Shown here: positions 472 to 38,400 of the stretch, piece after piece | Layout of the letters: each line of letters begins with the position of its first letter | Numbering within the stretch: position 1 is the stretch's first letter | NCBI RefSeq assembly: GCF_029269265.1 | Contig: NZ_JARIXP010000001.1 | Span: 1 to 56,342, forward strand | Direction of reading: 5' to 3' | Origin: Rheinheimera sp. 1928-s | GTDB taxonomy: Bacteria; Pseudomonadota; Gammaproteobacteria; Enterobacterales; Alteromonadaceae | Length of the DNA: 56,342 bases | The notes under the pieces: model-generated | Seen by the model: the letters and a program-made list of their open reading frames with translations, nothing else | Databases searched by the model: none | Told to the model about the DNA's origin: nothing | Program-made: the position numbers and the translations under genes

Positions 472-481
472 CCAAATACAG

Positions 482-508: not shown

Positions 509-536
509 ATTTGCGTTGCTATAGGCGGTCGGCAGG

Positions 537-587: not shown

Positions 588-651
588 GCCTTGAGCTCTG
601 CGAAAGGCCGGACAAGACGGCCTGCTGTCGCCTCACCGCCCGGAATAAGCA

Positions 652-767: not shown

Positions 768-917
768 ATACAGGCGCAATGCCTTCGGCGATTGCACCCT
801 ACAAACCAATCCCACCTACCTTTTACCCCCCTATTTGGCTATAATGCAGCCCGTTTTTACAGCAGTTTTGGGTGTGGTTTGATCATAGTTCGTGTGGCGC
901 AGTATATTTGGTTCAGA

Positions 918-2078: not shown

Positions 2079-2096
2079 CTTTCTGTTATATAGAAC

Positions 2097-3868: not shown

Positions 3869-3904
3869 AAAACCTCAGCGGGACATAAGAAATTGAGGCT
3901 AGTG

Positions 3905-3942
3905 TAGCGGATCCGACTCTTTACTCACAGACGGATCCGCTA
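3905..3942. repeat. Perfect 11-bp inverted repeat upstream of cysM
   Basis: TAGCGGATCCG (3905-3915) and CGGATCCGCTA (3932-3942) are exact reverse complements separated by 16 bases. The element sits 36-74 bases upstream of the cysM start on the minus strand. There is no T run on either side. An operator or an mRNA hairpin is more likely than a classical terminator. Confidence 0.65.
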
Positions 3943-3955
3943 TAAGTCAGAAGCT

Positions 3956-4705
3956 TTATAGTCTCGACAGACGTTTAAAGTTGTCACACAAAATGGCAGT
4001 GGCTATACCCACATTCAGTGATTCTGTGTCGCTGAAAGCAGGGATAGTCACAGGGTGGCTGATCACCGATTTTAATGCAGAGCTAATACCATTGGCTTCG
4101 TTACCCATCACCAGATAACCACCGGCTTTACTGAGCTTTAATTGATGCACAGACTCACCTTCAAGATAAGCGCCATAGACAGGCATAGTGCTTTGCTCTA
4201 ATACTGGCAATAACTCCTGGTAATACATCTGTACCCGCAAAAACGAGCCTTTAGCCGCCGCTATCACTTTCGGGTTGTATAAATCCACTGTGTCAGTTGA
4301 GCAGAGAATGTGGCGAATACCATACCAGTCGGCAACGCGGATAATAGTACCTAAATTACCTGGGTCGTTGATTTGATCCAACACTAACACCCAGTCGCCT
4401 TGTTGCTCTTTAAATGGCAGTGCTACTGGTATTTCAGCCACCGCCAAAGCGGCGTTATTGCTACTAAAAGTACCGACCTGCACCAATTCATGCTCAGTGC
4501 ATTGCTGTACCAAATCAGCTTTAGTACAAAGACCATGATGTTGTTGCAAAAACTGCTCTGTACCAAAGACTGCCCGCACTTTCCACGAACTGTGCAGCAA
4601 CTCCAGCACAGATTTTTCGCCTTCGACAAAAAACAACTGCTCGGCTTTGCGGTATTTTTTTTGCTGTAAAGATCGGATTAACTTCGACCATTTCTGACTA
4701 ATCAT
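3956..4705 (-). CDS. TrmH/SpoU-family RNA 2'-O-methyltransferase
   Basis: The 249-residue SPOUT-class enzyme is predicted to methylate a ribose 2'-OH in rRNA or tRNA using SAM. The N-terminal substrate-binding part contains the FFVEGEKSV motif near residue 25. The knotted C-terminal domain shows LDQINDPGNLGTIIRVADW, LVMGNEANGIS and ESLNVGIATAILC, which are SPOUT motifs 1-3. It resembles RlmB/YsgA-type proteins, but the exact target base cannot be assigned. It follows the amidohydrolase gene by 19 bases, so they are probably cotranscribed. Confidence 0.92.
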   Translation of the reverse strand: MISQKWSKLIRSLQQKKYRKAEQLFFVEGEKSVLELLHSSWKVRAVFGTEQFLQQHHGLCTKADLVQQCTEHELVQVGTFSSNNAALAVAEIPVALPFKEQQGDWVLVLDQINDPGNLGTIIRVADWYGIRHILCSTDTVDLYNPKVIAAAKGSFLRVQMYYQELLPVLEQSTMPVYGAYLEGESVHQLKLSKAGGYLVMGNEANGISSALKSVISHPVTIPAFSDTESLNVGIATAILCDNFKRLSRL

Positions 4706-4724
4706 AAAAACCTATAAAAGAGAC

Positions 4725-9597: not shown

Positions 9598-10170
9598 ATG
9601 AGCCTTTGCCTGTTTTCTTTAATTACTAAAGCAGAACACTTGCAGCAAATGCAGCAGGAATTGCAATTGCTGGCACAGCAGCACTGGTGTCAGCATGTGA
9701 ATAAAGCCGATTATCAAGGCGGCTGGGATGTATTGGCTTTGCGTTGCGCCACCAAACATCAGGATGCTCACGCCATATTGCAAAGTTTTGCCATTGAAGA
9801 TGGCACAGAGTGGCAGGATTTACCTTTGCTGGAACAGGCCCCTTACGTCAAAAATTTTCTGCAGCACTTACCTGTTTCAATAAAGTCTGTACGTTTAATG
9901 CGTTTACATCCAGGTGCTGTGATTCAACCCCACAGAGATCATGGCTTGTGTCTGGAACAAGGTGAAGCTCGTTTGCATTTGCCACTACAAACCAACCCTG
10001 AGTTAAAATTTTACGTGGCAGAGCAGTTGGTGCCTATGCAGGAAGGTGAGCTGTGGTATATCAATGCGGATCAAACCCATAGAGTTGAAAATAAAGGGGG
10101 AGCCGCCAGAATTAATCTGGTGATTGATTGTGAAGCGAATGACTGGCTAAAGGGGCAAGTCTATGCCTGA
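9598..10170 (+). CDS. Aspartyl/asparaginyl beta-hydroxylase-like 2-OG oxygenase
   Basis: The 190-residue double-stranded beta-helix protein is predicted to be an Fe(II)/2-oxoglutarate-dependent hydroxylase. The metal triad is visible as PHRDH (H112, D114) and H161 in DQTHRV. R171 in ARINLVID is placed to bind 2-oxoglutarate. LHPGAVIQPHRD is typical of the Asp_Arg_Hydrox family, whose members hydroxylate Asp/Asn in proteins or amino-acid-derived metabolites. No signal peptide is seen, so it is cytoplasmic. Its last 8 bases overlap the next gene (ATGCCTGA), implying coupled translation and a shared pathway. The substrate is unknown. Confidence 0.88.
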   Translation: MSLCLFSLITKAEHLQQMQQELQLLAQQHWCQHVNKADYQGGWDVLALRCATKHQDAHAILQSFAIEDGTEWQDLPLLEQAPYVKNFLQHLPVSIKSVRLMRLHPGAVIQPHRDHGLCLEQGEARLHLPLQTNPELKFYVAEQLVPMQEGELWYINADQTHRVENKGGAARINLVIDCEANDWLKGQVYA

Positions 10171-12145
10171 TCAGTGGGGTAACTCCAAAAGACTTAGCCG
10201 CACTGAACTGGAACTCTATGCCAGAGCTTTGCTGCAGTGTAGTTCACCAGGCCAGGCTAAACAGCTGATAGACCCTGTGCTGCGTGCCTTATGTCAACAA
10301 ATCGAACTTGATTTACATCCGGCTATGTTTACTGATCCCGGCGCCACTGTCACGGCTTATGGCAAAGCTGTCTCTCCAACTACAGCTGCACAATGTGCTG
10401 AAGATCCAGACAGAGGCCGTGTTTTTATCCAGGGCTTGCACCAGGCCATTCTCGATCAGGTACAACAACAACCAGACAGGCCAGTGCAGTTGTTGTATGC
10501 AGGTACGGGCCCTTTGGGTTGGCTGGTTTTACCTTTGTTAACTGTATTTGATGCCAGTCAGTTGCAAGTGACAGCTTTGGATATTCACCCGCAGTCTTTG
10601 CAGAGTTTTAAAGCACTGACGGAGCACTTTGGCCTGTCAGACAGAATCACAGATTGGGTTTGTGTGGACGCTACCTTATGGCAACCCGAACCTAAACCAG
10701 CCTTTGATCTGATTGTATCTGAGACCATGAAACATTTGCTGCAGCAGGAACCGCAGGTGCAGATTTTCAGCCATTTGCAGCAATTTCTGACCGTCAAAGG
10801 CCGGTTGATCCCACAACAAATTAAACTGGATGCCTGGGTGGAATGGCGGGAGCAGGGGCAACAACAACGGCACTACTTAGGGCCTTTATTTACGCTGGAC
10901 AAGCAACTTTCCACTGCACTGGCAATAGGAGATCTGTCCGCATTTTCCGGTCAGTGGTCGTTACCAGAGTTTGAACCTGGACCTGTGGATTTGAAACTCA
11001 CCACTGATATTCAGGTGTATGAAACATACTGGCTGCGGGAACATCAGTCGCAACTGACAATGCCACGGTATAAATCCGGACTGATGCTGGTTCCGGCTTC
11101 TGTCGTGCAGTTTCAGTATCAACAGGGGATTTACCCGGATTTTGAATTTGAGTATCAACAGCAGTGGCCTGAACTGGTCAGCAGTGACGATTTAAGCTGT
11201 GCAGGCGTATTTCACGCCAAACGATTATGGCAAAAAACACAGCTGAAAAAGTACAGGCAAGTTGATGCAGAGTACCCGGACGAATGGTTACTGGATAAGG
11301 CGGTGCTTGACCTTTGTGGAGTAGGGCTGGAACCCGGTATGCAGGCTTTGCATAGCTGCAGCAGACTAAGCGACTGTGTTGCTTTTTTGCAGCCTTATGT
11401 GTCGGATCTGTCGGTAAGAACAAGGATAAACCAGCAGCTCAAGTCGTTAAGGCAAAACAAAACTCAGGCGGAACTACCGCAGCTGTTAACCGACGCTCAA
11501 CTGGAGTTCTGGCGCACTCAGGGGTATCTGGTGATCCCCGGTGTATTAAGCAAAGAGCAATGCCAGCAAAGTTGTGATCTGATTTGGCAGTATTTGCAGG
11601 CCGACCCGGCACAACCGGACAGTTGGTATCAAAGCACAGATAAAATGCAAAAAATCATGCTTCAGCTGTTCCGCCACCCTGTGCTGGATGCGAACAGGCA
11701 ACAGCCTCTGATCCGCAAGGTGTACGAACAATTATGGCAACGCACAGATTTAGTGATGAGTACAGACAGGGTCAGTTTTAATCCACCTGAAACCAACAGC
11801 TGGCGTTTCCCCGGGCCTGATTTGCACTGGGATGTTGACCTGATAGCGCCAGTACCTTTTGCCACTCAAGGGCTGGTTTATTTGACGGACACTACAGAGC
11901 AACAAGGTGCTTTTTGTTGTGTGCCGGGTTTTCACCTGAAGGTTGATCACTGGATTAACAGCCAAAACAAAAACGCCATTGAACTGCAGCAGCAAAACTG
12001 GGCAGACTGGCCTGTCAAAGCCATAGCGGCCAAAGCTGGTGATTTAATTATCTGGCATCAGGCGCTGCCTCATGGTGCCAGCCGTAACACTGCAAACTCT
12101 CCTCGTATGGTGCAGTACATCACTATGTATCCTTTGGTGGATTGA
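10163..12145 (+). CDS. Fusion of class I SAM methyltransferase and PhyH-type dioxygenase
   Basis: The 660-residue protein has two catalytic halves. The N-terminal half has a Rossmann methyltransferase core: motif I YAGTGPLG at residues 112-119, an acidic residue after strand 2 (D140, in LDIHP), and SETMK at 186-190, which recalls the PRMT-like group. The C-terminal half (about 435-655) is a phytanoyl-CoA-dioxygenase-like 2-OG oxygenase with HWD at 555-557, distal H637 in LPHGASRN, and a following Arg for 2-oxoglutarate. The middle part (about 250-430) is probably a methyltransferase beta-barrel extension. The stop codon shares its last base with the next start (TGATG). Substrate unknown; the fusion suggests successive methylation and hydroxylation of one molecule. 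Confidence 0.85.
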   Translation: MPDQWGNSKRLSRTELELYARALLQCSSPGQAKQLIDPVLRALCQQIELDLHPAMFTDPGATVTAYGKAVSPTTAAQCAEDPDRGRVFIQGLHQAILDQVQQQPDRPVQLLYAGTGPLGWLVLPLLTVFDASQLQVTALDIHPQSLQSFKALTEHFGLSDRITDWVCVDATLWQPEPKPAFDLIVSETMKHLLQQEPQVQIFSHLQQFLTVKGRLIPQQIKLDAWVEWREQGQQQRHYLGPLFTLDKQLSTALAIGDLSAFSGQWSLPEFEPGPVDLKLTTDIQVYETYWLREHQSQLTMPRYKSGLMLVPASVVQFQYQQGIYPDFEFEYQQQWPELVSSDDLSCAGVFHAKRLWQKTQLKKYRQVDAEYPDEWLLDKAVLDLCGVGLEPGMQALHSCSRLSDCVAFLQPYVSDLSVRTRINQQLKSLRQNKTQAELPQLLTDAQLEFWRTQGYLVIPGVLSKEQCQQSCDLIWQYLQADPAQPDSWYQSTDKMQKIMLQLFRHPVLDANRQQPLIRKVYEQLWQRTDLVMSTDRVSFNPPETNSWRFPGPDLHWDVDLIAPVPFATQGLVYLTDTTEQQGAFCCVPGFHLKVDHWINSQNKNAIELQQQNWADWPVKAIAAKAGDLIIWHQALPHGASRNTANSPRMVQYITMYPLVD

Positions 12146-13260
12146 TGCAAAAAGTCAGTTTGTACCACGCCTTATTGCACGATGCTGTCAGGTTAAAGAC
12201 CTTATGGCAGCAGGAGCAACTGGATGAGTTTGTCGCTTTGATGCGCCAGTATTTACGCTGGCCTGAACTTAACTTTGAGCAACTACAGCGTTTTTTAGCA
12301 GAGCAAAACCAGCAAGCCTTTTGCCCTGAACTGGCCTCTTTTAGCCTGTGTTGGCAACCTTATGCTTATCAGGCACAGCGTAAAATTGTACGTTGGGCTC
12401 CGGCTTTCCTGAAACCCTCTTTGCCTTTTTTTGAAGACGATTTAGCCTTGAGTCGTCAGAGTTTGCTGGCGCAGTTGATCCAGCCTTTTAGTGAACTGGA
12501 ACAGTTGTTACCCCAGCGTTTAACTGTGCCTGCAGTGCAACCGGCCTTGTTGATTTTTCACTGGTCCAGATGTGGTTCCACTTTGGTTTCCGGCAGTTTT
12601 GCCTTACACCAAAAAGTGAAAGTGCTATCCGAGTCTATGCTGGCCAGTGATCTGCTGAATGACCCTTATTGGGCCGGGCAACAACCAGAGCTGCTGGATT
12701 TAGTAGTACGTTTGCAAGGGCGTTTGCGGCACAATGAACAGCGACTGGTGATTAAATGCAATGCCTGGGATTTGCAACATTGGCCTGTCTGGTTAAGTTT
12801 GTATCCGAAAGCTGGGGTGTTGTGTGTAATTCGTCAACCTGAAGCAGTGCTGGCGTCTCATCATCATCTGGCAGGCCGCCATATGGTGAGGTTACAACCC
12901 GAACTCTGGAAAGACACCAATCAATGCGCCACTTTATTGGACTACAGAATTGAGGTGGTCCGGCAAATGGCTGTTTTGATGAATGCAATGCGACAATATT
13001 GTCACTGCACAGTGTTGAGTTACGAACAATTAAAAGACTTCACACCACCGCAATTAGCCAGTCTTGCCGGATTAACCCTGACGGACGCAGAGCAACAGCT
13101 GTGGCGGGAGTTTCGGCTTTTTGATGCAAAACAGCAGGGCGTACCTTTTCAACCAACTAAAAAATCAGCAGAAGAGCTTTTTAGTCCGGCAGAGTTAAAG
13201 CAGATCCGCTCAGATCTACAACCTTTGTATCAGCTTTTACTGGCAAAAGGCGAGGGATAG
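12145..13260 (+). CDS. Sulfotransferase-like protein
   Basis: The 371-residue protein is called from a PAPS-binding 5'-PSB-like loop, FHWSRCGSTLVS (near residue 140), and a later VLSYEQL segment that resembles the family's 3'-phosphate region. The N-terminal 120 residues are not recognisable. It is divergent enough that PAPS use should be treated as predicted. The ATG at 12145 overlaps the previous stop; a TTG three bases earlier is in frame but not favoured. The 3' end overlaps the oppositely oriented gene by 31 bases. Confidence 0.75.
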   Translation: MQKVSLYHALLHDAVRLKTLWQQEQLDEFVALMRQYLRWPELNFEQLQRFLAEQNQQAFCPELASFSLCWQPYAYQAQRKIVRWAPAFLKPSLPFFEDDLALSRQSLLAQLIQPFSELEQLLPQRLTVPAVQPALLIFHWSRCGSTLVSGSFALHQKVKVLSESMLASDLLNDPYWAGQQPELLDLVVRLQGRLRHNEQRLVIKCNAWDLQHWPVWLSLYPKAGVLCVIRQPEAVLASHHHLAGRHMVRLQPELWKDTNQCATLLDYRIEVVRQMAVLMNAMRQYCHCTVLSYEQLKDFTPPQLASLAGLTLTDAEQQLWREFRLFDAKQQGVPFQPTKKSAEELFSPAELKQIRSDLQPLYQLLLAKGEG

Positions 13261-14784: not shown

Positions 14785-15384
14785 ATGTCTGAACAATTTA
14801 TTGGTGAAATCCGTATGTTTGGTGGTAGTTTCGCTCCACGTAACTGGGCATTTTGTAACGGGCAGTTGTTGAATATTCAGCAAAATACGGCATTATTTTC
14901 TATACTGGGAACGACATACGGCGGCGATGGCGTAAACACCTTTGCATTACCTAATCTGCAAGGCCGTGTTCCAGTGCATAAAGGGCAAAGCCCTGGTACC
15001 AGCTTTTATAGTCTGGGCGAGGCGGCGGGCACTGAACGAGTGACGCTTACTGCCGCCGAACTACCTGCTCATACTCATACAGTGGCATTAACAGGGACCG
15101 GCAGCGCTAGTCTAGCGTTAAGCGCTTCCTCTGAGAATGGCAATACGCCTACTCCCGGCCCAACAACTGTGCCAGCTAAAGTACCAAGTGGCTTAGCCTC
15201 ATTGAATGCTTATAGCACTACAGCGCCTGACACCACGCTTTTACCTGCTACAGCAACAACAACTGTGAATGTAAGTGGAAACACCGGAGTGGCGGGCAGT
15301 AATATGCCTGTTTCCGTGGTTCAGCCTTTTTTAGCCTTAAACTTTATTATCGCTACTCACGGACTTTTTCCTAGTCGTAATTAG
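14785..15384 (+). CDS. Phage tail collar domain protein (MdpB-like)
   Basis: The 199-residue protein begins IGEIRMFGGSFAPRNWAFCNGQLL, with tail-collar hallmarks in G-x-FAPxNWAFCNGQ and ALFSILGTTYGGDGVNTFALPNLQGR. The middle is Ser/Thr/Ala-rich, and the C-terminus VVQPFLALNFIIATHGLFPSR is the conserved fibre-like end. It matches the microcystin-dependent protein type, which occurs outside prophages. No other phage gene is nearby and there is no signal peptide. A ribosome site AAGGAA precedes the ATG. Function unknown; attachment or a contractile-injection-like role is only a guess. Confidence 0.88.
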   Translation: MSEQFIGEIRMFGGSFAPRNWAFCNGQLLNIQQNTALFSILGTTYGGDGVNTFALPNLQGRVPVHKGQSPGTSFYSLGEAAGTERVTLTAAELPAHTHTVALTGTGSASLALSASSENGNTPTPGPTTVPAKVPSGLASLNAYSTTAPDTTLLPATATTTVNVSGNTGVAGSNMPVSVVQPFLALNFIIATHGLFPSRN

Positions 15385-15412
15385 CATTTAATACGGGGCG
15401 GGTTGATAAGTA

Positions 15413-15451
15413 TTAGTATGAAGTGCGTAAAAACTACGCACTTCATACTAA
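15413..15451. repeat. Perfect 17-bp hairpin in the leader of the giant adhesin gene
   Basis: Arms 15413-15429 and 15435-15451 are exact reverse complements around a 5-base loop AAAAC; the core is GAAGTGCGTA/TACGCACTTC. It lies 28 bases after the tail-collar stop and 26 bases before the ATG at 15478. The plus-strand side is followed by A's rather than T's, so it is not a canonical terminator. It could end the tail-collar transcript, protect an mRNA end, or control translation of the adhesin. Confidence 0.8.
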
Positions 15452-15477
15452 AAAAGACATTGGAAGGGGAAGTGGTC

Positions 15478-18400
15478 ATGCAGGAAGTTACTTTTAAAAT
15501 CATTGATATGCTTAATCGCCTGATAAGGTTGTATAAACATTTTAGTGGGCGACAATGGTTTTTAGGTAGCTTGTTGGCTCTGGCATCTTTTGGTGCTATG
15601 GCGATAACTCCCTCGGATCAAGGATTTGACTCTGAGTCGGAACGGCTTCTCGTGACCAGCGGTGAAACTATTACCGGAGCAACCTATAGGCTATTTTCAC
15701 CTGCAGGTTTTTTGGCTTTAACTCAAGCACCTGCCAGTGTAAGTATTACACCAGACAGCAACGACTTAGCCGTTATGTTTAACTTTGATGGGGTGAATAT
15801 TAATCCGGGGGCTTTGGATGCGAGGATCACCTCGGCCGACGGTACTGAGTTCAGAATTGTTTCGATGGAAGTGGATACAGGGGCTGGTTTAAGCACCAGT
15901 TCAAATCTCGTTGTCACTGGTTATAGAGACAGTGTTCAAGTGGCATCCGATACTATTAATACGGCAAACTCTGATTCATCGGGTTCAGTCACTTATGCAA
16001 AAAATGCTGTTGGTGGTGGTTTCGGGGGGACTATTACCTTTAATTCAGACTGGCAGTATATAGATGAAATACGTTTTACTGGTACTGATACCATTGTGGT
16101 GGTTGATGACTTAGATTTTGAACCTGGCATTTCACCCAACCTTGCTCCTACAGTGGATGCCAATGGCGCTGCTGGCGGCACATCCAATACCATCACTTTT
16201 ACCGAAGACGCCCCAGCTGTCCGTATTGCAACAAGTGACGCGACCGTAACTGATGACGGCAATATAGCGGGTATGACTCTGGTATTGACGGCTACACCTG
16301 ACGGCGCATCGGAAGTGATAGCGTACAGCGCCTCTCTTAATGGTGGTGCTTCACTTGTCTCACAGGGGCTAACCGGCAGTTACAATAGTGGAACCAGAAC
16401 CTATACCCTGACAGGTACAACTACAGCTGCTGTATACCAAAGTGTGTTGCGCGCTCTGGTGTACAACAATAGTAGTCAAAACCCCACTACAACAGCTCGT
16501 ACTGTGACTATCACTGTGACAGATGCAGGAAGCGCAACGGCGCAGGCGACATCCACCATCAATATCACTGCGGTCAATGATGCCCCTGTTGTCACAGCCT
16601 CAGGTGGCACCACTGCATTTACCGAAGGCAATAACGTCGCTTCAACACCAGTTGCGATAGACACTGGCCTGACACTGTCAGACGTCGACAACGCAAACAT
16701 GGCTTCGGCGACTATCTCTATCACTGGAAATCTCCAGGCAGGGCAAGACATACTGGGTTTTAGTGACCAAAATGGTATCACTGGTAGCTACGACCCAGGC
16801 ACCGGAATCTTAACCCTGTCGGGCAGTGCTACTGTGGCTCAGTATCAAGCAGCGCTGAGCTCTGTGACTTACAGCAACAGCTCTGAAGACCCCAATACAA
16901 GCAATAGGACTATCAGCTTTGTCGTAAACGACGGCACTGGTAATAGCTCCGCCAGTACCAAGACGGTTAGCGTGACGGCTGTTAACGATACCCCAACCGA
17001 TATTGCGCTGAGTGCGAATACTCTGAACCAAAGTGCTGCCAATGACACTGTGGTTGGTACTTTCAGCAGTACTGATGTGGATAGTGTGAGCTTTACTTAC
17101 AGTTTTGCCAGCGGTGCGGGTGATACGGATAATGCTTCTTTTAGTATCAGTGGCGATCAACTGATTGCAACCACTCCTTCTGCTATTGCTGGAGGTAATC
17201 GTACAGTTCGCGTGCAGACCAGTGATGGCAATAGCAGTTTCTCTAAAGCTCTTACTGTTGTTGTGACAGATGATATAGCGCCAAATGCACCATCTGTGCC
17301 GGATCTGGCTGCTGGGTCCGATAGTGGCAGTAGCCAGACTGATAATATTACCAATGTCACTACTCCAACCTTTACCGGAACGGCAGAGCCAAACAGCACA
17401 GTCACTTTGTATGACACAGATGGGACTACTGTGTTGGGTAGTACTACAGCAACTGGCGGCAACTGGAGTATTACCAGCTCAGCTTTGAGTGCAGGCAGCC
17501 ATGTTCTGACAGCAAAAGCAACAGATGGTGCTGGTAACGCGTCGGTGTCATCTGCTGGTTTGACTATTACTATTGATACTACTGCACCAGCCAAGCCTGC
17601 TACTCCTGATTTAGCTGATGCTTCGGATACGGGCAGCAGTAACTCGGATAATGTAACCAACGCCACCAGCCTGACTTTTAACGGCACTGCAGAAGATGGC
17701 AGTACCGTCAGCCTGAGCTCCAGTGTAAACAATGGCTTGGGAACGACAGCGGCCACAGGTGGCAGCTGGAGTTTAACCACTGCAGCTGTCACCAGCGAAG
17801 GGGCGCATAGCATCACACTAACGGCCACAGACGAGGCGGGTAATGTCAGTGTGGCTTCGGATCCACTGGCGATCACCTTAGACAAAACCCCACCTGCTAT
17901 TGGCGGTGTGGCTTTTGATCAGGCGTCCATAACGAGCGCTAATCAGGCTGCAGTGAGCTTTACTTTGGCTGGTGCTGAGGTGGGTGCAACGGCAGAGTAC
18001 GAAATTACCAGCAATAATGGCGGCACCGCAGTAAGCAACTCTTTTGTGGTTGCAAGTGCAGCGCAGCAAGTGACAGGATTGAATGTCGGTGCTTTAAATG
18101 ACGGCACTTTAACTATCAGCATTATTCTGACAGACCCAGCTGGTAACAGCAGCACCCCGGCAGTTGAAGCTACTGTGAATAAAGATGCGAATGATCCTCT
18201 AGTCTCGGCAGTTGCTATTGCATCTGGCAACTACAAAGCAGGAGACAGCATTAGCTTTACAGTTACTTTTACTGAGGCTTTGGTATTATCCGGTGCTAAT
18301 TCTGACTACAGTTTGGCGATAGACATAGACGGCATGACCCGGCAGGCCCTGTTAACTAATAATGCAGCTGGCGTTTTAACTTTTAGCTATACAGTGCAGG

Positions 18401-21400
18401 CTGGTGACAATACCGCTGCTGCTGGTGTTGCCATCGCCAGCAACGGATTGTCCTTGCTCAATAGTGCTACCATCAAAGATGCAGGCAATAATGATGCAGT
18501 TTTATCTTTCAGCGGTGTTAATAACAGTGCGGCTAAAGTAGATACTACAGCTCCTGCATTAACAATAGTGACAGATCCGGCTCAGGCAGTGTTTGTAAAT
18601 GCAGCCAACTATGAAATTAAAGGCACTCATAGCGAAATTGGCCTGACTATTAACCTCTATGCAGATACAGGCAATGATGGTACTGCAGACGGTGGAGTTT
18701 TGGTCAGTGCTGTGGTCGATGCCGATGGTAACTGGAGTTTGCTCCAACCTTTAACTGCAGACAGTGCACACAATTATGTGGTGGTGGCTGAAGATGCGGC
18801 TGGTAACGAGTCGGCTGCAGCAGATGTGCCTACTATTACTGAAGACTCTATTGCCCCGGTAACTCCTGCAGTGACTACTCCTGCAATAGCAACTGTGGTT
18901 AGCGGTGTGGTGCAGCAAATTACAGGTACTCATGCTGAAGATGGCGTCACAATAGAAGTGTTTGCCGATACTGGCAATGATGGTGAAGCAGATAACAGCA
19001 CAGTGCTTGCCAGCGCAGAAGTTGGAGCGGTAGCTACAGGCACATGGTCACTGGATGTCATTTTAACCGCAAACGCCGACAATAACTTTGTGGTGATAGC
19101 CAAAGACAAAGCAGCCAATCAGTCTGCTGCTGTGGATGTACCCACTATTACCGAAGATTCTGTGGCTCCTGTGGTGACTATAGCACCACTGCTGACTGCA
19201 AATCCAAGCCCTGCTTTGGTGGGCACAGTGGATGATGCCACTGCAACCTTAAGCCTGACAGTGGACGGTAACAGTTACACTCCAACCAATAACGGCGATG
19301 GCAGCTGGGTCCTCGCTGCTGATCAAATCACAGCTTTGGCTCACGGTGTTTATGATGTTGTTGTCAGTGCTGAAGACGCACAAGGCAATATTGGCACTGA
19401 TGCTACAGGTAATGAGTTGACTATCGATCTGCTGGCACCTTCAGGCTATACAGTAGCTATAATGCAGGACCGTATCAGCGCCGATAACCAGGCAGCCATG
19501 AGCTTTGCTCTGGCAGGTGCTGAGGTTGGCACTGTATATAGTTATTCGGTCAGTGATGGTACTAATGTGGTCTCTGACGTGGGTCCTGTGATGAGCCCGA
19601 CTCAGCAGGTAGGCCCTATTAATGTCACTGATCTCGCTGAAGGTACCTTGCAACTGAGTGTCACTCTGATGGATGTGGTAGGCAATATTGGTGCCGCAGC
19701 AACAGATACAGTAGTGAAACTTTACAACGCGACTCCGGTGATTTCCGGCAGCCCTGCAACTTCAGTTAATGAAGACAGCCTGTATAGCTTTACCCCGACT
19801 GCAACTGATGCAGATGCAGGTACCACCCTGACGTTCAGCATCAGCAATAAACCAGCATGGGCAACCTTCAACACGGCCACTGGCGCGCTGACTGGCACAC
19901 CAACCAATGATCATGTAGGTGTCACTTCAGGCATAGTGATCAGCGTCAGCGACGGTACGGCAACAGCTTCACTTGCAGCTTTTGCTATTACAGTGGTCAA
20001 TACCAATGATGCTCCTGTTGTCACTTCAACACCAGTCACCTCAGCGACTCAAGGTTCGCTTTACAGCTACAGCTTTGCAGGCACTGATGTGGATGCGGGG
20101 GATACCTTAACCCGCTCAGTGGTGACCAAACCAGCCTGGCTAACCTTTAATGCTGGCACAGGTGTATTGTCCGGTATTCCGGCCAATAGTGATGTAGGCG
20201 CACATGCAGTGACATTAAGAGTGACAGATGTCGCTGGTTTATTTGCAGATCAAAGCTTTACTGTCACTGTGACCAATGTCAACGATGCACCCACTATCAG
20301 CGGAACTCCGGCAATCACAGTAGCTCAGGGCGCAGCTTATAGCTTCGTACCCACAGCTGCGGATGTGGATGCCGGTACAACTTTGACCTTCAGTATTGCG
20401 AATAAACCAAGCTGGGCCAGCTTTAATACGGCGACAGGGGCCTTAACCGGTACTCCGGGTAATGCCGATGTTGGGGCTACTGCGGGTATTGTGATTTCAG
20501 TGTCAGACGGTGAGTTAACTGCAGCACTGCCAGCCTTTACGCTGACAGTGACCAATGTCAACGATGCACCCACTATCAGCGGAACACCTGCGATTACAGT
20601 CGCCGAGGGCGCAGCTTATAGCTTCGTCCCTACAGCTGCGGATGTGGACGTGGGTACAACCTTGACCTTTAGCATTGCCAATAAACCAAGCTGGGCCAGC
20701 TTTAATACGGCGACAGGGGCCTTAACTGGTACTCCGGGTAATGCCGATGTTGGGGCTACTGCGGGTATTGTGATTTCAGTGTCAGATGGTGAGTTAACTG
20801 CAGCACTGCCAGCCTTTACGCTGACAGTCACTAATGTTAACGATGCACCCACTATCACTGGAACACCTGCGATAACAGTAGCGCAGGGCGCAGCCTATAG
20901 CTTCGTACCCATAGCTGCGGATGTGGATGCCGGTACAACTTTGACCTTCAGTATTGCTAATAAACCAAGCTGGGCCAGCTTTAATACGGCGACAGGGGCC
21001 TTAACTGGTACTCCGGGTAATGCCGATGTAGGAGCGACTGCGGGTATTGTGATTTCAGTGTCAGACGGTGAATTAAGTGCAGCACTGCCAGCCTTTACGC
21101 TGACAGTGACCAATGTCAACGATGCACCCACTATCAGCGGAACACCTGCAGTGACAGTAGCGCAGGGCGCAGCTTATAGCTTCGTTCCTACAGCTGCGGA
21201 TGTGGATGTGGGTACAACCTTAACCTTTAGCATTGCGAATAAACCGACCTGGGCGGCCTTTAATACAGCGACTGGAGCCTTAACCGGTACTCCGGGTAAT
21301 GCCGATGTTGGGGCTACTGCGGGTATTGTGATTTCAGTGTCAGACGGTGAGTTAAGTGCAGCTTTGCCAGCCTTTACGCTGACAGTCACCAATGTCAACG

Positions 21401-24400
21401 ATGCACCCACTATCACTGGAACACCTGCAATCACAGTAGCTCAGGGCGCAGCTTACAGCTTCGTTCCTACAGCGACTGATGTGGATCTCGGTACAACTTT
21501 GACCTTTAGCATTGCGAATAAACCAAGCTGGGCCAGCTTTAATACGGCGACTGGAGCCTTAACCGGTACTCCGGCCAATGCCGATGTTGGGGCTACTGCG
21601 GGTATTGTGATTTCAGTGTCAGACGGTGAGTTAAGTGCAGCATTGCCAGCCTTTACGCTGACAGTGACCAATGTCAACGATGCACCCACTATCAGCGGAA
21701 CACCTGCAATTACAGTAGCGCAGGGCGCAGCTTATAGCTTCGTCCCCACAGCTGCGGATGTGGATGCCGGTACAACCTTCACCTTTAGCATCGCCAATAA
21801 ACCAAGCTGGGCCAGCTTTAATACGGCGACAGGGGCCTTAACCGGTACTCCGGGTAATGCCGATGTAGGAGCGACTGCGGGTATTGTGATTTCAGTGTCA
21901 GACGGTGAGTTAAGTGCCGCTTTGCCAGCCTTTACGCTGACAGTCACTAATATCAACGATGCACCTACTATTACTTCAACAGCCATAACTAATGCAGCTC
22001 AGGGTACAGCTTATAGCTACACCCTTACTGCTACAGACGAAGATGTGGGTGACACCCTGACCTTCAGTGCAGCCACTAAACCTACCTGGTTAAGCTTTAA
22101 CGCTGCAACGGGTTTATTAAGTGGCACACCAGCGCGGGCAGATGTAGGAAGTCATCAGGTTAGTTTAGTAGTGACTGACAGTGGTGGATTAACTGCAACA
22201 CAAAACTTTAGTCTGGTGGTAATCAGCTCCAATGATGCTCCTGTTGCAACAAATCGTTCTGCCACGTTGGAAGAAGACACAAGCCTGAGTCTGACTTTAA
22301 CAGCGCAGGATCCGGATCAGGATGAACTGACCTTTGAGCTTGTCACTCAGCCAGAACATGGTACAGCAACACTGCAAGGTGCCGTACTGGTGTATACACC
22401 GGATCAAGACTTTAACGGTACAGACAGCATTGGTTTTATCGCCAAAGATGCAGAGTTAAGTTCTACAGTGGCCACTATCAGTCTGACTGTTACCGCAGTG
22501 AATGATAATCCTGTAGCACTGGATGACAGCTACAGCCTGCAACGCACGAGCAACAATCAGTACCTGCTGAATGTACTGGCCAATGACACAGATGTGGATG
22601 AAGACACACTGACTATAGATGGCGCCTCTAGCACTGTAGGTACTGTGATCTTTAATGCGCAGGGCTTAACTCTTACTGCACCGGATCGTTATGTAGGGCC
22701 TGTTAGCCTGCGTTACACCGTCACTGATGGTAACGGTGGCCGTGCCAGTGCTAATGTCAGCCTGATTATTGAAGGCGGTGCGGCAGCTGATCTGCCAGTG
22801 ATTACAGTGCCTGCCGACATTGAAGTCAATGCAACGGCACTCTTTACCCGGGTTCCTCTTGGCACTGCCACAGCTGTGGATCGTAATGGTCGTCGCCTGA
22901 GGGTGTCCTTGATCAACGGTAGTTTGTTCTTTGCTCCAGGCGAACATATCGTCTACTGGCAGGCTACTGATGCTGACGGCAATACGGCCACCAAAGCACA
23001 GAAAGTCAGTGTCAATCCGCTGATCTCATTAAGCAAAGATCAACTGGTGACTGAAGGCAGTGATGTGGTGGTTGAGGTGATGCTCAATGGTCCGGCTCCT
23101 GTCTACCCAGTGTTAGTGCCATACACAGTTACTGGCAGTGCAGATGCCAATGATCATACGCTGGTGTCTGGAGTGGCGGAAATCACCTCAGGCTTAAGCA
23201 CCGGTATTCGTTTTGCTGTACTGGAAGATGGTCAAGCAGAAGGAGTTGAAGACATAGTGATTAGCCTGGATGCTAGCGTTAATCGTGGCAGCCAACGCAG
23301 CAGCCGTATTGTGGTGACAGAAGCCAATATCGCCCCTGTTGTGTCTTTAACTGTGCAGCAGAATAGCGAAAGTCGGCTGACTGTTGGGGAAAATGACGGT
23401 CTGGTGACAGTGACAGCTACGGTAACCGACGCCAACCAGCAGGATCAGGTTAGTGGAGTATGGAGCTTTGGTCGTCTGGACAATGTGACTACAGATCAAA
23501 CTCAGTTGAGCTTTGATCCGGCTGAGCAAGGGCCTGGTTTGTATCAGGTCAGCTACACGGCGACAGACAATGGCACACCTAATTTATCTGCTACCAACAG
23601 AGTCTTTATCGTGGTCAGGCCCAGTCTGCCGACTTTAGGATCACAAGATTCAGATGGTGATTTAATCCCTGATGAGCAGGAGGGTTTTGCTGACTCAGAC
23701 GGTGATGGTATTCCTGATTATCAGGATGCCATCAACGAATGTAACGTGATGCCAACCGAGTTACTGGGCCAGACTGAATTTGTTGCTGAAGGGGAGCCTG
23801 GTGTGTGTTTACGCCTGGGTACTGTAGCGGCTGAAACTGATGCTGGTGGGTTGCAGATAGCACAAGATGCTATTGAAGAAGATCCTGTGGCTGTAAATAT
23901 TGGCGGTATCTTTGATTTTATCGCTTATGGTTTACCTGAACAGGGTCAAAGCTATAGCCTGGTGATACCACAACGTTTACCAGTGCCCGCCAATGCAGTG
24001 TACCGTAAGTTCAGCGATGTGGGCTGGGTAGACTTTGTCAGCAATGAGCGTAACTCAGTGGCCAGTACGCAAGGTGAACGGGGATTCTGCCCACCACCTG
24101 GCGGAGTGGAGTGGACTGAAGGTTTAACTGAAGGTCATTGGTGTGTGCAGGTCACAGTAGAAGATGGTGGTCCAAATGATGCCGACGGCGTCGCCAACAG
24201 CGCTATTGTAGACCCTGGTGGTGTGGCGGTTGAGCTCAATGGTAATAACCTGCCTGTGGCTGTGGCCGATACCGCTTCAACAGGGGTTGATATGACAGTG
24301 GTGGTGGATGTGTTGGCCAACGACACAGATCCGGACGGAGATGCTTTAACTGTCAGTCAGGCTGTAGGTAGTTTTGGTACTGTTACTGTGCTGGCTGATC

Positions 24401-25488
24401 AGCAATTAAGCTATACACCAAATCAGGACTTTATTGGCACAGATACAGTGATCTACAACATTACCGATGGCAGAGGCGGTACGGCCAGCAGTGAGTTGAT
24501 TGTCAGCGTGGTAGCAAACAGAGCTCCTGTGGCTGTGAATGATGTAGCATCTACCGATGATAAAACTGTATTGCTGATAGCGGTGTTAGCCAATGACACT
24601 GACGAAGATGGCCATACACTGACGATCAGCAGCGCCAGTGCAGTGCAGGGCACTGTCAGTATTGAGGCGGATCAACGCCTGCGTTATGTGCCAAAAGCCG
24701 GTTTTGCCGGGGTGGACACCATCAGTTATACAATAACAGATGGTTTTGATGGAGAGGCAACAGCACAGGTTAGTGTCACTGTGCGGGCTTATCAGGACGT
24801 CGTTGTAGATAACAAATCAAGTGGAGGCAGTATGGCGTGGTGGATGGTGATGGTAGTCGCAGGAGCTGTGGTATTGCGTCGCCGTTCAGTGCTGGGGTTA
24901 GCTGCGGTAGCGTTGTTGTCGTTTAGTCCTTTTAGCCAGAGCGCTGACTGGTATCTGCAAGGTTCCATTGGAAACAGTAAAGCCGACCAGAATCAAAGTC
25001 GTTTGGTAGAGGAGTTACCTAATGGAACCATCACTGGTTTTGATGACAGTGACAGGTCTTTTGGCATCAATCTGGGTTATCAGCTGCATCCTTATGTTGC
25101 GTTGGAGGCTGGTTATTTGGATTTAGGCGAAGCCAGTAGTCAAATCACCGCAGAAAGTCTGACACCAGAGCAGTACCATGAATTGGTGAAGGCCGTCAGC
25201 CCGGTATTAGTGGATGGTTATACTGCAGCAGTGCGTTTTACTTTGTGGCAAAACGATCAGTTGAGTCTGGAAGTGCCTGTAGGCCTGCTGTTTTGGGAGT
25301 CTGAAATAGAAAGCCGAATGGATGATGAAGTACTGAAAACAGAAACGGATGGCAGTGATTTATATCTTGGCGTTCAACTGAACTATCAATTGGCGGCAGG
25401 CTGGAAAGTAGGTGTGGGGTATCAGCAGCTAAATCTTAAACCCAACGATGTAAATACTTGGCTGGTGAGTTTACGCTACGAGTTCTGA
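15478..25488 (+). CDS. Giant multidomain adhesin with GlyGly-CTERM and C-terminal OMP beta-barrel
   Basis: The ATG at 15478 is chosen for its strong ribosome site GGAAGGGGA, giving 3336 residues. A long n-region leads to a signal peptide ending near residue 42 (SFGAMA). About 43-218 is an N-terminal globular domain. About 220-510 and 600-1320 hold cadherin-like and bacterial Ig-like repeats. About 1418-2252 holds nine He_PIG/CADG-type repeats, six nearly identical. Cadherin-like/VCBS repeats, HYR-like and Calx-beta-like regions follow, then TSP3 calcium repeats (DSDGDLIPDEQEG..., 2724-2752), a choice-of-anchor-U-like domain (about 2780-2920, with CPPPGG and EDGGPNDADG), and two more Ig-like repeats. 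Residues 3114-3136 look like a GlyGly-CTERM signal (SSGGSMAWW...VLRRR). A signal-like hydrophobic stretch (3137-3156) and a 180-residue OmpA-like barrel ending LRYEF follow directly. It probably acts in surface adhesion or biofilm. A terminator follows. Confidence 0.88.
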   Translation: MQEVTFKIIDMLNRLIRLYKHFSGRQWFLGSLLALASFGAMAITPSDQGFDSESERLLVTSGETITGATYRLFSPAGFLALTQAPASVSITPDSNDLAVMFNFDGVNINPGALDARITSADGTEFRIVSMEVDTGAGLSTSSNLVVTGYRDSVQVASDTINTANSDSSGSVTYAKNAVGGGFGGTITFNSDWQYIDEIRFTGTDTIVVVDDLDFEPGISPNLAPTVDANGAAGGTSNTITFTEDAPAVRIATSDATVTDDGNIAGMTLVLTATPDGASEVIAYSASLNGGASLVSQGLTGSYNSGTRTYTLTGTTTAAVYQSVLRALVYNNSSQNPTTTARTVTITVTDAGSATAQATSTINITAVNDAPVVTASGGTTAFTEGNNVASTPVAIDTGLTLSDVDNANMASATISITGNLQAGQDILGFSDQNGITGSYDPGTGILTLSGSATVAQYQAALSSVTYSNSSEDPNTSNRTISFVVNDGTGNSSASTKTVSVTAVNDTPTDIALSANTLNQSAANDTVVGTFSSTDVDSVSFTYSFASGAGDTDNASFSISGDQLIATTPSAIAGGNRTVRVQTSDGNSSFSKALTVVVTDDIAPNAPSVPDLAAGSDSGSSQTDNITNVTTPTFTGTAEPNSTVTLYDTDGTTVLGSTTATGGNWSITSSALSAGSHVLTAKATDGAGNASVSSAGLTITIDTTAPAKPATPDLADASDTGSSNSDNVTNATSLTFNGTAEDGSTVSLSSSVNNGLGTTAATGGSWSLTTAAVTSEGAHSITLTATDEAGNVSVASDPLAITLDKTPPAIGGVAFDQASITSANQAAVSFTLAGAEVGATAEYEITSNNGGTAVSNSFVVASAAQQVTGLNVGALNDGTLTISIILTDPAGNSSTPAVEATVNKDANDPLVSAVAIASGNYKAGDSISFTVTFTEALVLSGANSDYSLAIDIDGMTRQALLTNNAAGVLTFSYTVQAGDNTAAAGVAIASNGLSLLNSATIKDAGNNDAVLSFSGVNNSAAKVDTTAPALTIVTDPAQAVFVNAANYEIKGTHSEIGLTINLYADTGNDGTADGGVLVSAVVDADGNWSLLQPLTADSAHNYVVVAEDAAGNESAAADVPTITEDSIAPVTPAVTTPAIATVVSGVVQQITGTHAEDGVTIEVFADTGNDGEADNSTVLASAEVGAVATGTWSLDVILTANADNNFVVIAKDKAANQSAAVDVPTITEDSVAPVVTIAPLLTANPSPALVGTVDDATATLSLTVDGNSYTPTNNGDGSWVLAADQITALAHGVYDVVVSAEDAQGNIGTDATGNELTIDLLAPSGYTVAIMQDRISADNQAAMSFALAGAEVGTVYSYSVSDGTNVVSDVGPVMSPTQQVGPINVTDLAEGTLQLSVTLMDVVGNIGAAATDTVVKLYNATPVISGSPATSVNEDSLYSFTPTATDADAGTTLTFSISNKPAWATFNTATGALTGTPTNDHVGVTSGIVISVSDGTATASLAAFAITVVNTNDAPVVTSTPVTSATQGSLYSYSFAGTDVDAGDTLTRSVVTKPAWLTFNAGTGVLSGIPANSDVGAHAVTLRVTDVAGLFADQSFTVTVTNVNDAPTISGTPAITVAQGAAYSFVPTAADVDAGTTLTFSIANKPSWASFNTATGALTGTPGNADVGATAGIVISVSDGELTAALPAFTLTVTNVNDAPTISGTPAITVAEGAAYSFVPTAADVDVGTTLTFSIANKPSWASFNTATGALTGTPGNADVGATAGIVISVSDGELTAALPAFTLTVTNVNDAPTITGTPAITVAQGAAYSFVPIAADVDAGTTLTFSIANKPSWASFNTATGALTGTPGNADVGATAGIVISVSDGELSAALPAFTLTVTNVNDAPTISGTPAVTVAQGAAYSFVPTAADVDVGTTLTFSIANKPTWAAFNTATGALTGTPGNADVGATAGIVISVSDGELSAALPAFTLTVTNVNDAPTITGTPAITVAQGAAYSFVPTATDVDLGTTLTFSIANKPSWASFNTATGALTGTPANADVGATAGIVISVSDGELSAALPAFTLTVTNVNDAPTISGTPAITVAQGAAYSFVPTAADVDAGTTFTFSIANKPSWASFNTATGALTGTPGNADVGATAGIVISVSDGELSAALPAFTLTVTNINDAPTITSTAITNAAQGTAYSYTLTATDEDVGDTLTFSAATKPTWLSFNAATGLLSGTPARADVGSHQVSLVVTDSGGLTATQNFSLVVISSNDAPVATNRSATLEEDTSLSLTLTAQDPDQDELTFELVTQPEHGTATLQGAVLVYTPDQDFNGTDSIGFIAKDAELSSTVATISLTVTAVNDNPVALDDSYSLQRTSNNQYLLNVLANDTDVDEDTLTIDGASSTVGTVIFNAQGLTLTAPDRYVGPVSLRYTVTDGNGGRASANVSLIIEGGAAADLPVITVPADIEVNATALFTRVPLGTATAVDRNGRRLRVSLINGSLFFAPGEHIVYWQATDADGNTATKAQKVSVNPLISLSKDQLVTEGSDVVVEVMLNGPAPVYPVLVPYTVTGSADANDHTLVSGVAEITSGLSTGIRFAVLEDGQAEGVEDIVISLDASVNRGSQRSSRIVVTEANIAPVVSLTVQQNSESRLTVGENDGLVTVTATVTDANQQDQVSGVWSFGRLDNVTTDQTQLSFDPAEQGPGLYQVSYTATDNGTPNLSATNRVFIVVRPSLPTLGSQDSDGDLIPDEQEGFADSDGDGIPDYQDAINECNVMPTELLGQTEFVAEGEPGVCLRLGTVAAETDAGGLQIAQDAIEEDPVAVNIGGIFDFIAYGLPEQGQSYSLVIPQRLPVPANAVYRKFSDVGWVDFVSNERNSVASTQGERGFCPPPGGVEWTEGLTEGHWCVQVTVEDGGPNDADGVANSAIVDPGGVAVELNGNNLPVAVADTASTGVDMTVVVDVLANDTDPDGDALTVSQAVGSFGTVTVLADQQLSYTPNQDFIGTDTVIYNITDGRGGTASSELIVSVVANRAPVAVNDVASTDDKTVLLIAVLANDTDEDGHTLTISSASAVQGTVSIEADQRLRYVPKAGFAGVDTISYTITDGFDGEATAQVSVTVRAYQDVVVDNKSSGGSMAWWMVMVVAGAVVLRRRSVLGLAAVALLSFSPFSQSADWYLQGSIGNSKADQNQSRLVEELPNGTITGFDDSDRSFGINLGYQLHPYVALEAGYLDLGEASSQITAESLTPEQYHELVKAVSPVLVDGYTAAVRFTLWQNDQLSLEVPVGLLFWESEIESRMDDEVLKTETDGSDLYLGVQLNYQLAAGWKVGVGYQQLNLKPNDVNTWLVSLRYEF
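20284..21957 (+). repeat. Six tandem 279-bp coding repeats
   Basis: GATGCACCCACTAT or close variants begin at 20284, 20563, 20842, 21121, 21400 and 21679, an exact 279-base (93-codon) period. The next unit begins at 21958 but is divergent. The copies differ mainly at a few positions, such as the DVDAGTTL, DVDVGTTL and DVDLGTTL variants. Older, diverged units of 92 codons flank them on both sides (about 19732, 20008 and 21958). This is recent in-frame expansion. Confidence 0.95.
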
Positions 25489-35350: not shown

Positions 35351-35449
35351 TGAAATGCTTCGCGCATAGGACAACTTGAATGATTAGATAAATTCAGCGA
35401 CGGAAAAATAACCAGTCGCGTCGATAATAATCACAAGTTGGAGAGTCCA

Positions 35450-38400
35450 GTGAAGTTAAAATCCATAGCTTATGCCGTTGCAGCCGCCTTTGGTGGTATT
35501 GCAATTGCCCATGCTGCAACCAGTCATTTGCCCGCATCCTCAGCAAGTAAGACGGATGCAAATACCCTAAAACCCGTCGCTATTTCAGCCGAACAAATCA
35601 AAAAACAGCAAAATAGCAGAAGCATCAAAAACAACAGATTTGTGAATGACGGTTTAAACCTTGCGTTGCAGCCAAAAAAAGTTAACTTTGTGCGCGAAGA
35701 TGGTCTCAAAGGAGAGCAAGTCTACATCGTCAGGTTACGACACAGTGCAGTAAGCCAATACAACGGCAGTATTGCCGGACTTGCCGCTACCAAGCTGGAA
35801 AAAGCGGATACAGCACAGCGTTTATTCGCGAAAGGTCAGCCCGCTACTGCTGCGGTGAAAGACTATCGGGAGTTTTTACTGGATCAGCAGCAAGTTGCAT
35901 TAAAAGATATCAGTCAGTTGCTTGGTGCTAAAAAAGCCCGTATGCAATTTGTGAATGCTATCAACGGCTTTAGTTTAAGTCTGACGCAGGACGAAGCCGA
36001 ACAAGTCGCTGCTTTGCCCGGCGTGGTCAGTGTACAGCGCTCAAAAATGTATCAGCTGCATACCGATGAAGGCCCGCAACGTATCAGTGCTGACAAAGTC
36101 TGGACTGGGCAAACCAGTGTAGATTTACCACTGAAAGGTGAAGGTACCATTGTTGGTATTATTGATACTGGTGTAAACAGTGATCACCCTTCGTTTGCCG
36201 ACATAGGTGGCGATGGCTACAACCATGTTAACCCATTGGGCGCTGGTAACTATGTAGGAGACTGTGCGCTTGAAGAGTTCGAGAGCAGATGTAACGACAA
36301 ACTGATTGGTATTCGCAGCTACTCTGTGATTACCGACACGTACGATGGTTTGTACCCTGCAGTGGGTGAAGACGTTTCAGGTCATGGTTCACATACGGCA
36401 TCTACAGCCGCTGGTAACGTGCTGAGAGACGTCGATTATTCAGTCGCTGAACTCAGCCCTGCCAGCGAAGGTAAAGTGATCAAAGAAGATTTATTCCCTG
36501 AGATCTCAGGTGTGGCACCTCATGCCAATATCATTTCTTATCAGGTCTGTTACCCGTTAGAAGGTTGCCCGGGTGAGGCCTTAGTCGCTGCTATTGAAGA
36601 CGCCGTAATTGATGGTGTGGACGCGATTAACTTTTCTATTGGTAATGTGATGAACGTTACTTCACCTTGGGAAGACGCCATTGAGCTGGCCTTTTTAGGT
36701 GCACATCAGGCCGGTATAGCCGTTGCGGCTTCAGCAGGTAATGCGGGTAGCAATGATGGTCAGGAAATTGGAACTTACATTGACCACGTCTCCCCTTGGT
36801 TATTAAACGTTGCCGCTTCGACCACTGGCCGCAGTATTGTGGTGGACACCAAAGCGCAGGGCTTTACCGGTGGTGACAGTCTGCCGCAAGAAGCTATAGC
36901 TGGTGGTGGTATCAATGAACAGGCTCTGACAGGTGTAGTGGTGCAGGCCGCTAATTTTGGTAATGAGCTGTGCACAGAACCTTTTGCTGCTGGCACTTTT
37001 GATAATTTAACCAATGCAGATGGCGAACCTTACCTGGATGCCGAAGGTAATCCAGCCAATATTATCGTTGCTTGTATGCGTGGCGAAAATGGCAGGGTGG
37101 AGAAATCTGCTCATGTTGCAGCAGGTGGTGCTGAAGGTTTTATTCTTTATAACGCCACAGATTGGGGGGCTGATGCGACTATCGCTTACACCGATAGTTA
37201 CGCTGTGCCTGGAATTCATCTGTCTTATGGTCAGTGGTGGAATCAACTTCAACCTTGGTTAAGCTCACAAAGCAGCACTGGCCACCAGTTGACCCTGACA
37301 GTGACAGAAATCGACCGTCGACAAAACGATGCTGAAGCCGACAAACTGGCTGATTTTTCGTCTCGCGGCCCTGGTATTGCTAACCCTGAACATTTAGTGC
37401 CTTCGGTGACTGCGCCTGGTGTGGATATCTATGCCGCCATTAACGACGAAAGTCCTTTTGCTGAGCGTTTGGGGTTAAGCCCAGTGACGGGTGAGTTTGG
37501 TGTGTACAGCGGCACTTCTATGGCGTCTCCTCATGTTGCCGGCGCTTTGGCTTTGTTAACCCAGGCGCATCCAGACTGGACAGTGGCGCAAAAGCAATCA
37601 GCTTTGCAGTTAACAGCCGAACCTGTAGTGACTTATGCAGTTAATGCTGGTACAGAGTGGGAGCAAGATATTAAAGCCGAAATTTATCGTGCCGGTACTG
37701 GCCGCATTAATGTGGCCGCGGCCATAGATGCGGGCCTGCTGATGGATGAAAGTTATAACAATATGTTGGAGGCAAACCCAGCCAATGGTGGACTGGTACA
37801 CAAACTGAACTTGCCACAAATGGTGAACTTCAGCTGCAAACCGACCTGTAGCTGGGTCCGTACTTTTACCGCCACTAAAGATGGTAGCTGGACAGTTTCT
37901 GCTGATGAAATTACTAACTGGTCTCCGTCTTATCAGGAACGTTATGTACAACAGGGCGCTAAGCTGGAAATTGTGCCGAATAAATTCAGCTTAAAAGCAG
38001 GTGAAACTCAAACTGTGATGGTGCGGGCTTCTATTATGAATTCTCAAGATGTGTTGGGAAATTCAGAAGTCGAGTTGCAGTCTCATCTGATGTTTAAAGA
38101 AGACAATAACAATGCGCCTGACATGCGTTTGCCAGTGGTCTTCAAATACGACAACGCTGGCCTGCCTGAACGTTTGTCTGTCATTGCCCACAGAAATGAA
38201 AGCAGTTATGTTGCTAAACAGGTGCCGGTACCAGCCATGACACAAGCTGTAACCCGCACTTATCAGCCGGTCAAAGCGGAACGTCATAGCGTTACCTTAG
38301 CAAAAGATGATGATTTCACCTTCCCATGGCCACTGCAGGACGGCGATTTGCCTGAAAATCGTCTGGATGAGGCAGCCCATAGTTTCTGGATTGATGTGCC

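Follow-up and report, generated by a model that had tools for sequence, protein, structure and literature searches.

The fused gene and its anatomy

The 56,342-nucleotide stretch analysed here, referred to as the window, comes from the gammaproteobacterium Rheinheimera sp. 1928-s (assembly GCF_029269265.1, contig NZ_JARIXP010000001.1, positions 1 to 56,342) and carries, in one open frame, a giant adhesin whose GlyGly-CTERM sorting signal lies inside the protein and is followed by a second signal peptide and an OmpA-type outer-membrane barrel (Table 1). An earlier note on this DNA had described this succession, and profile searches bear it out: TIGR03501 matches the window protein with 20.2 bits against a cut-off of 15.5 (21.2 bits for the piece alone), and the C-terminal part matches PF01389 and PF13505, has eight long strands and ends in Phe. 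The gene likely starts, by our choice, at the ATG at 15478, behind a purine-rich stretch, and its passenger matches Big_9, He_PIG and Cadherin_4/5 in Pfam as well as NF012211 and NF041766 in NCBIfam.

Table 1. Features of the fused gene in the window
Feature	Position	Strand	Basis or remark
Long open frame	15403-25488	+	3361 codons, single frame
Fused gene: adhesin, GlyGly-CTERM, second signal peptide, OmpA-type barrel	15478..25488	+	Frame and translation
Adhesin N-terminal signal peptide, MQEVTF...SFGAMA / ITPSD	15478..15603	+	Read by eye, without predictor
Adhesin passenger: tandem-95, Ig-like and cadherin-like repeats, choice-of-anchor U domain	15604..24816	+	Pfam, NCBIfam
Internal GlyGly-CTERM (Gly motif, helix, RRR)	24820..24885	+	TIGR03501
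Two Gly codons	24823..24828	+	Near-invariant in 24 diverse homologues
Candidate Shine-Dalgarno AGGAG (24861-24865) with TTG (24874-24876)	24861..24876	+	Weak; almost only in Rheinheimera-type rows
RRR, basic tail of first signal and n-region of second	24877..24885	+	Conservation, loop charge
Second signal peptide, h- and c-region	24886..24942	+	Hydrophobicity, homologue residues at site
OmpA-type outer-membrane barrel, 8 strands, 181 residues, C-terminal Phe	24943..25485	+	PF01389/PF13505, strand count

A GlyGly-CTERM would be expected at the extreme C-terminus; here 200 residues follow RRR, and the window protein is therefore a variant rather than a plain member of that class. Judged by simple rules rather than a trained predictor, the second hydrophobic segment has a positive n-region, an h-region (11-residue Kyte-Doolittle mean 2.53) and small residues at -3 and -1; it looks like an ordinary cleavable signal peptide, with a likely signal peptidase I site between SQS and ADW. 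By analogy with VesB, rhombosortase is expected to cut after the second Gly, between 24828 and 24829.

Breadth of the fusion and conservation of the junction

The last 262 residues, used as a query against 98 relatives, found matches in 40 genomes. Among near records, that of R. soli is 91% identical over the 262 residues, and several Shewanella, including ANA-3, S. decolorationis and S. xiamenensis, give full-length matches. Where the junctions were read, the in-frame fusion is present in 18 of the 22 genomes of the genus, two of which (G007 and G018) are readable upstream only to a contig edge. Further families came from profile searches that covered 394 genomes of the order and 369 of the class.

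Altogether, reading of the loci one by one gave about 70 fused loci under 22 family labels, all in the Gammaproteobacteria, as well as nine loci with adjacent genes; the earlier note had proposed searching homologues for fusion or separate genes, and both occur. The fused tally comprises 52 loci in the main set, 6 added at the level of the order (L061, L065, L067, L069, L075 and L090, missed by the pattern or omitted earlier; the last five were missed by the pattern script and are fused on inspection), 13 from the class (L119-L123, L125, L126, L128, L132 and L186-L189) and one, L194, which was found in the phylum sample and belongs to the same class; the matches were read in part, and these counts are no frequency. 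Among the matches listed from outside the class in the phylum sample, none spans the junction, with one match, in a 1295-residue frame of G890, not inspected.

The junction keeps its signals across this range. In 24 diverse homologues (down to 26% identity), the first Gly and the first Arg of RRR are invariant and the second of each nearly so. Among fused rows, the Gly pair is present in 51 of 52 (L094 has GxG), the loop carries a net charge of +2 to +7 in all 52 of a set that differs by one row from the former, the second hydrophobic segment reaches an 11-residue mean of at least 1.69 in 52/52, and a small-x-small site lies within 16 residues past that segment in 52/52, against a background of 0.687 of barrel windows. 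These rows are related and hence not independent, and the loci were mostly chosen by a Gly-helix-R/K pattern, so that an independent test is provided only by what follows the loop. The small-x-small count uses a looser rule than a stricter site picker, which placed the cut at an AVA within the h-region in seven Rheinheimera rows and at doubtful positions in some others, making its figure of 49/52 with Ala at -1 too high; in the Rheinheimera rows the likely site is SQ followed by S, G or A, immediately ahead of the first strand.

At E <=0.1, TIGR03501 recognizes 42 of the 52 Gly segments, and no other model recognizes as many. In ten close relatives, the ratio of nonsynonymous to synonymous substitution (dN/dS) is 0.113 in the Ig tail, 0.303 from Gly through helix to RRR, 0.065 in the second signal and 0.102 in the barrel, with the proportion of synonymous differences (pS) of the last two near saturation. 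While the remaining sequence diverges, the fused loci retain the Gly motif, the helix, the basic loop, the second hydrophobic segment and the small-x-small site. The passengers differ and include tandem-95 repeats, InlB-like repeats with a sub-threshold lectin match, DUF11 and TSP3, and an OmpA wall-binding domain follows the barrel in some fused homologues (L025, L027 and L028 by eye; L189 with PF00691 at 7.2e-16).

Several loci depart from this pattern. A long frame with a barrel and no clear Gly motif in the stretch read occurs in family f2 (L092, L093, L099). Both signals are missing from the fusions L185, which is FecR-like by eye, and L191, which combines OmpA, Ig and barrel, and L024 is a barrel remnant without GlyGly. 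In G293, of the Shewanella-type family f6, a Rheinheimera-type copy (L054) stands beside a copy like those of its relatives (L098), which suggests horizontal transfer.

Fused and split loci

Nine distinct loci have the two halves as neighbouring genes: the GlyGly protein has its own stop, and a barrel gene with a Met of its own follows it on the same strand. These split homologues carry the same two signals. The stop-to-start distances are -4 (L034), -1 (L035), +60 (L036), -4 (L078), -4 (L081), -7 (L083), +1 (L085), +16 (L086) and -4 (L192); with second-gene starts of our own choosing, six of the nine pairs thus share 1 to 7 bases, the overlap being exactly four in four cases (an earlier ATG would make the L086 pair overlap too). 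The earlier note had held that a stop or frameshift consistently found after RRR in homologues would speak against the arrangement. Some genomes do have such a stop, yet the barrel is the next gene in nine such loci, which supports pairing rather than error. In a paralogue, L037, the frame stops after the basic tail and barrel remnants only are left.

On a tree of 52 fused loci, 8 pairs and 4 solo barrels, the fused state changes nine times, at least five of these changes being forced by well-supported branches, and the paired state six times, three of them forced; long branches meet in this tree and some placements are unsure. Read from the tree, the nine changes with at least five forced indicate that fusion or fission has occurred repeatedly.

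Rhombosortase and type II secretion

The earlier note had also proposed looking for rhombosortase in the genome, and the enzyme is there: a protein at G000:C20:89642-90091 scores 151 bits against a cut-off of 84 and contains GLSG and a later His, which we take to be important for rhombosortase function. The same genome encodes the type II secretin GspD (540.9 bits), and a TIGR03501 search of it gave seven hits, a lower bound, as the terminal GlyGly of an S8 protease was missed.

Rhombosortase scores over the cut-off in 126 of 369 genomes of the class sample. It is present in 12/12 fusion carriers against 113/356 others (Fisher 1.6e-6; window's genome excluded) and against 26/48 genomes in which the barrel alone was hit (0.002; the 26 counted by hand), P values that are indicative, since the genomes share ancestry and the data had been seen before the groups were drawn up. 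It also occurs in 44 of 46 genomes with fused, paired or unclear loci. The rhombosortase frame of G742 starts at the end of the fused gene, directly downstream and on the same strand, an arrangement that would suit an enzyme and its substrate. Elsewhere, at L177 (G721, 1-4774), rhombosortase immediately follows a GlyGly-type protein, and a convergent OmpA-type protein lies alongside.

Relation to known systems

The closest precedent is MXAN_5598 of Myxococcus xanthus, in which an adhesin, an internal MYXO-CTERM, a barrel and an OmpA domain occupy one open reading frame (mBio 2025, PMC11980579); its authors suggested gene fusion and adhesin processing, likened the protein to TraA/TraB and stated, citing two references, that sorting tags function mid-protein. 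The present gene resembles it in joining a large adhesin, an internal sorting signal and an outer-membrane barrel within one frame, in that order, and differs in using GlyGly-CTERM and rhombosortase rather than MYXO-CTERM and myxosortase, and in ending without the OmpA wall-binding domain. Furthermore, MXAN_5598 is one named protein, whereas the fusion described here is found in many families.

TraA and TraB are likewise a sorting-tagged surface adhesin and a partner barrel; their genes overlap by four bases (PMC3325183), as do four of the nine split pairs, and the proteins form a 1:1 complex, with a measured ratio of 0.98 (PMC12045341). The window shares with them the coupling of a sorting-tagged adhesin to an OmpA-type barrel, fused in the window and as adjacent genes in relatives. 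In contrast, TraA and TraB are encoded by separate genes and involve a PA14-type domain and MYXO-CTERM, and TraB has an OmpA wall-binding domain, whereas the window's gene ends with the barrel (some fused homologues have the domain). The Cys of MYXO-CTERM is absent from VVVDNKSSGGSM, and no PA14 is found among Pfam matches up to 0.1, TraA's own PA14 being described as distant (PMC3325183).

With substrates of the VesB type the window protein shares the Gly motif, helix and basic tail, in a genome with rhombosortase and a type II secretion system; in those substrates the signal ends the protein, whereas here a second signal and a barrel follow. On VesB of Vibrio cholerae, rhombosortase exposes the second Gly, a glycerophosphoethanolamine-containing moiety is added and type II secretion brings the protein to the surface, where it mostly stays bound, part being released later (PMC6219818). 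The GlyGly-CTERM is, moreover, transferable between passengers (PMC13393428). The barrel itself is about 20% identical to the OmpA transmembrane domain (PF01389; PDB 9fzc, 1qjp), from which it differs in its proposed export from within a polyprotein and in having no periplasmic domain.

The arrangement as such is thus already known from one example with another protease. What seems to be new, in the open-licence literature searched, is the version with rhombosortase, how widely it occurs, the repeated switching between states and the split pairs that overlap. The 2011 paper that defined GlyGly-CTERM places it at the extreme C-terminus, and a word search of its available text found no "fusion", "internal" or "barrel" (PMC3237569); likewise, word searches of the available texts of PMC13393428 (2026) and PMC5300114 (2017) found no case of an internal GlyGly-CTERM. 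Literature searches on bacterial polyproteins with signal peptidase found nothing, and a search for the fbcH polyprotein, a precedent, returned nothing either. By its title, a 2017 study by Abdul Halim is said to concern an archaeosortase substrate in which an internal tripartite signal is processed, in archaea and by a different enzyme.

Proposed processing and alternative explanations

We infer the route proposed here, comprising two cuts, the topology, type II secretion and complex formation, from the anatomy, its conservation, the recurrent change between fused and unfused states and the co-occurrence with rhombosortase. The gene probably encodes a secreted polyprotein that would be cut twice, by rhombosortase after the Gly pair and by signal peptidase I before the barrel. 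In Sec export, a hydrophobic segment can stop transfer and a later one restart it, positive charges staying inside. The N-terminal signal peptide would accordingly route the giant adhesin through Sec, the GlyGly-CTERM helix would act as stop-transfer with RRR on the cytoplasmic side, and the next hydrophobic segment, with RRR as its n-region, would start a second transfer, that of the barrel. Rhombosortase would then cut past the Gly pair, giving the adhesin a new, probably lipid-linked C-terminus before type II secretion takes it to the surface, while signal peptidase I would free the barrel at its predicted site for insertion by the Bam machinery. The outcome would be equal amounts of adhesin and partner barrel, likely in a surface complex of the TraA/TraB sort.

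Of the two ideas that the earlier note had offered, the polyprotein finds support in the signals kept on both sides, the recurrent fused/unfused change, the split homologues with both signals and the presence of rhombosortase and secretin. The other, a controlled choice between tethered and released forms, finds no support, given that the second signal looks like an ordinary cleavable one and that VesB is mostly surface-bound and in part released later (PMC6219818).

Several observations count against this proposal. The partnership of adhesin and barrel is less sure than the double processing, linkage and analogy being what speaks for it. No rhombosortase reaches the cut-off in two carriers, G156 (99% complete) and G216 (80% complete), and within the order the enzyme is present in 83 of 98 genomes, too common to discriminate. 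The fusion is not universal, being absent from 4 of the 22 genomes of the genus, and L132, counted as fused, has about 170 extra residues between second signal and barrel. Finally, the window's signal-peptidase site has Ser at both -3 and -1, and many homologues have stronger, AxA-like sites.

The best-surviving alternative, which we nevertheless regard as unlikely, is that translation of the barrel also, or mainly, begins at a start inside the sorting signal, the read-through polyprotein being a by-product. In a pS scan of ten Rheinheimera-type rows (nine from the genus plus L054, which belongs to another family; 556 columns), the five lowest of 181 overlapping windows fall at the helix and RRR, with pS of 0.33-0.43 where the mean is 0.65; a window elsewhere follows closely at 0.438, and by our estimate such a rank is worth about 1 in 37 independent windows. 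This low synonymous divergence spans 24832-24897 and is seen in Rheinheimera-type rows only: 11 Shewanella-family rows and three f11 rows lack it, and a four-row Rheinheimera set, two rows of which are common to the ten-row scan, gives a weak signal (lowest 4-5% at three windows, minima elsewhere). Besides the candidate start in Table 1, the window has a second, GGAGG-ATG, at 24823-24834. A Shine-Dalgarno-like site before ATG, GTG or TTG stands at the helix end in 11 of 14 Rheinheimera-type rows, the start codon itself varying among rows (L174 dropped out of the codon listing); some such pair occurs in 13/14 of these rows against 11/38 other fused rows, of which 27 have none in the junction and L063 alone has one at the helix end. 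Starts do overlap in split homologues. Together, the low divergence and the Shine-Dalgarno-like site could mean that in the Rheinheimera-type group the barrel is translated by itself as well.

It is much less probable that one or both cuts do not take place, so that a hairpin in the inner membrane tethers adhesin and barrel until conditional cutting frees the adhesin. The single open frame fits such a chain, which would however hold two hydrophobic segments in the inner membrane while its barrel sits in the outer one; the small-x-small site retained in 52/52 rows, the two separate chains made by split homologues and the paralogue that ends after its basic tail also speak against it. An autotransporter-like role, in which the C-terminal barrel moves the passenger across the outer membrane, accords with the order of passenger and barrel, and was rejected as highly improbable: PF03797 scores 13.6 bits, below its cut-off of 26, the barrel is of the OmpA type with 8 long strands rather than the 12 of type V barrels, two membrane signals separate it from the passenger, and split genes exist. 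An assembly or sequencing error that removed a stop, as the unusual arrangement might suggest, was dismissed as next to impossible, the same frame being found in many independent assemblies (including single-contig G015, G021, G063 and G293) and dN/dS being 0.065-0.30 across the four segments tested. Twin-arginine export was rejected as well: RRRSVL resembles the twin-arginine motif, but the likeness is not conserved (RRYRLL, RQRRTL), and barrels need unfolded export.

Genomic neighbourhood

Directly upstream of the fused gene, at 14785-15384 (+), lies a gene for a phage tail-collar-domain protein (PF07484). Genes that look similar by eye, without a hidden Markov model, precede the fused gene in L163 (two), L164, L048 and L047, so that by this likeness the tail-collar neighbourhood is conserved; in the same upstream region, L164 has a GNAT-like gene and L163 one that resembles a sulfotransferase gene. 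Further upstream of the adhesin, at 9598-13260 (+), an Asp/Asn beta-hydroxylase, a PhyH dioxygenase with methyltransferase and a sub-threshold sulfotransferase match stand in a row and are possibly modification enzymes. At 35438-40705 (+), a subtilase (S8) carries an ordinary terminal GlyGly-CTERM, SSGSFGGWGLLMLVAMAGRLFRRKAA.

Conclusions and perspectives

To our knowledge, polyproteins are rare in bacteria. As a speculative extension, which we think rather unlikely, the loci described here may be a widespread gammaproteobacterial counterpart of TraA/TraB, made as one chain, cut by two unrelated proteases and forming 1:1 cell-cell contact junctions; adjacent, often overlapping genes and a polyprotein would then be two ways of fixing the ratio, between which evolution has moved repeatedly.

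A single chain with two different sorting signals back to back raises the question of whether rhombosortase acts on a non-terminal signal, and the natural occurrence of fused and split versions of the same pair offers a test of why a surface adhesin would need a partner barrel. What had been a remark on one Myxococcus protein is thereby extended to many families, and annotation that expects GlyGly-CTERM to be terminal will misdescribe such fused proteins.

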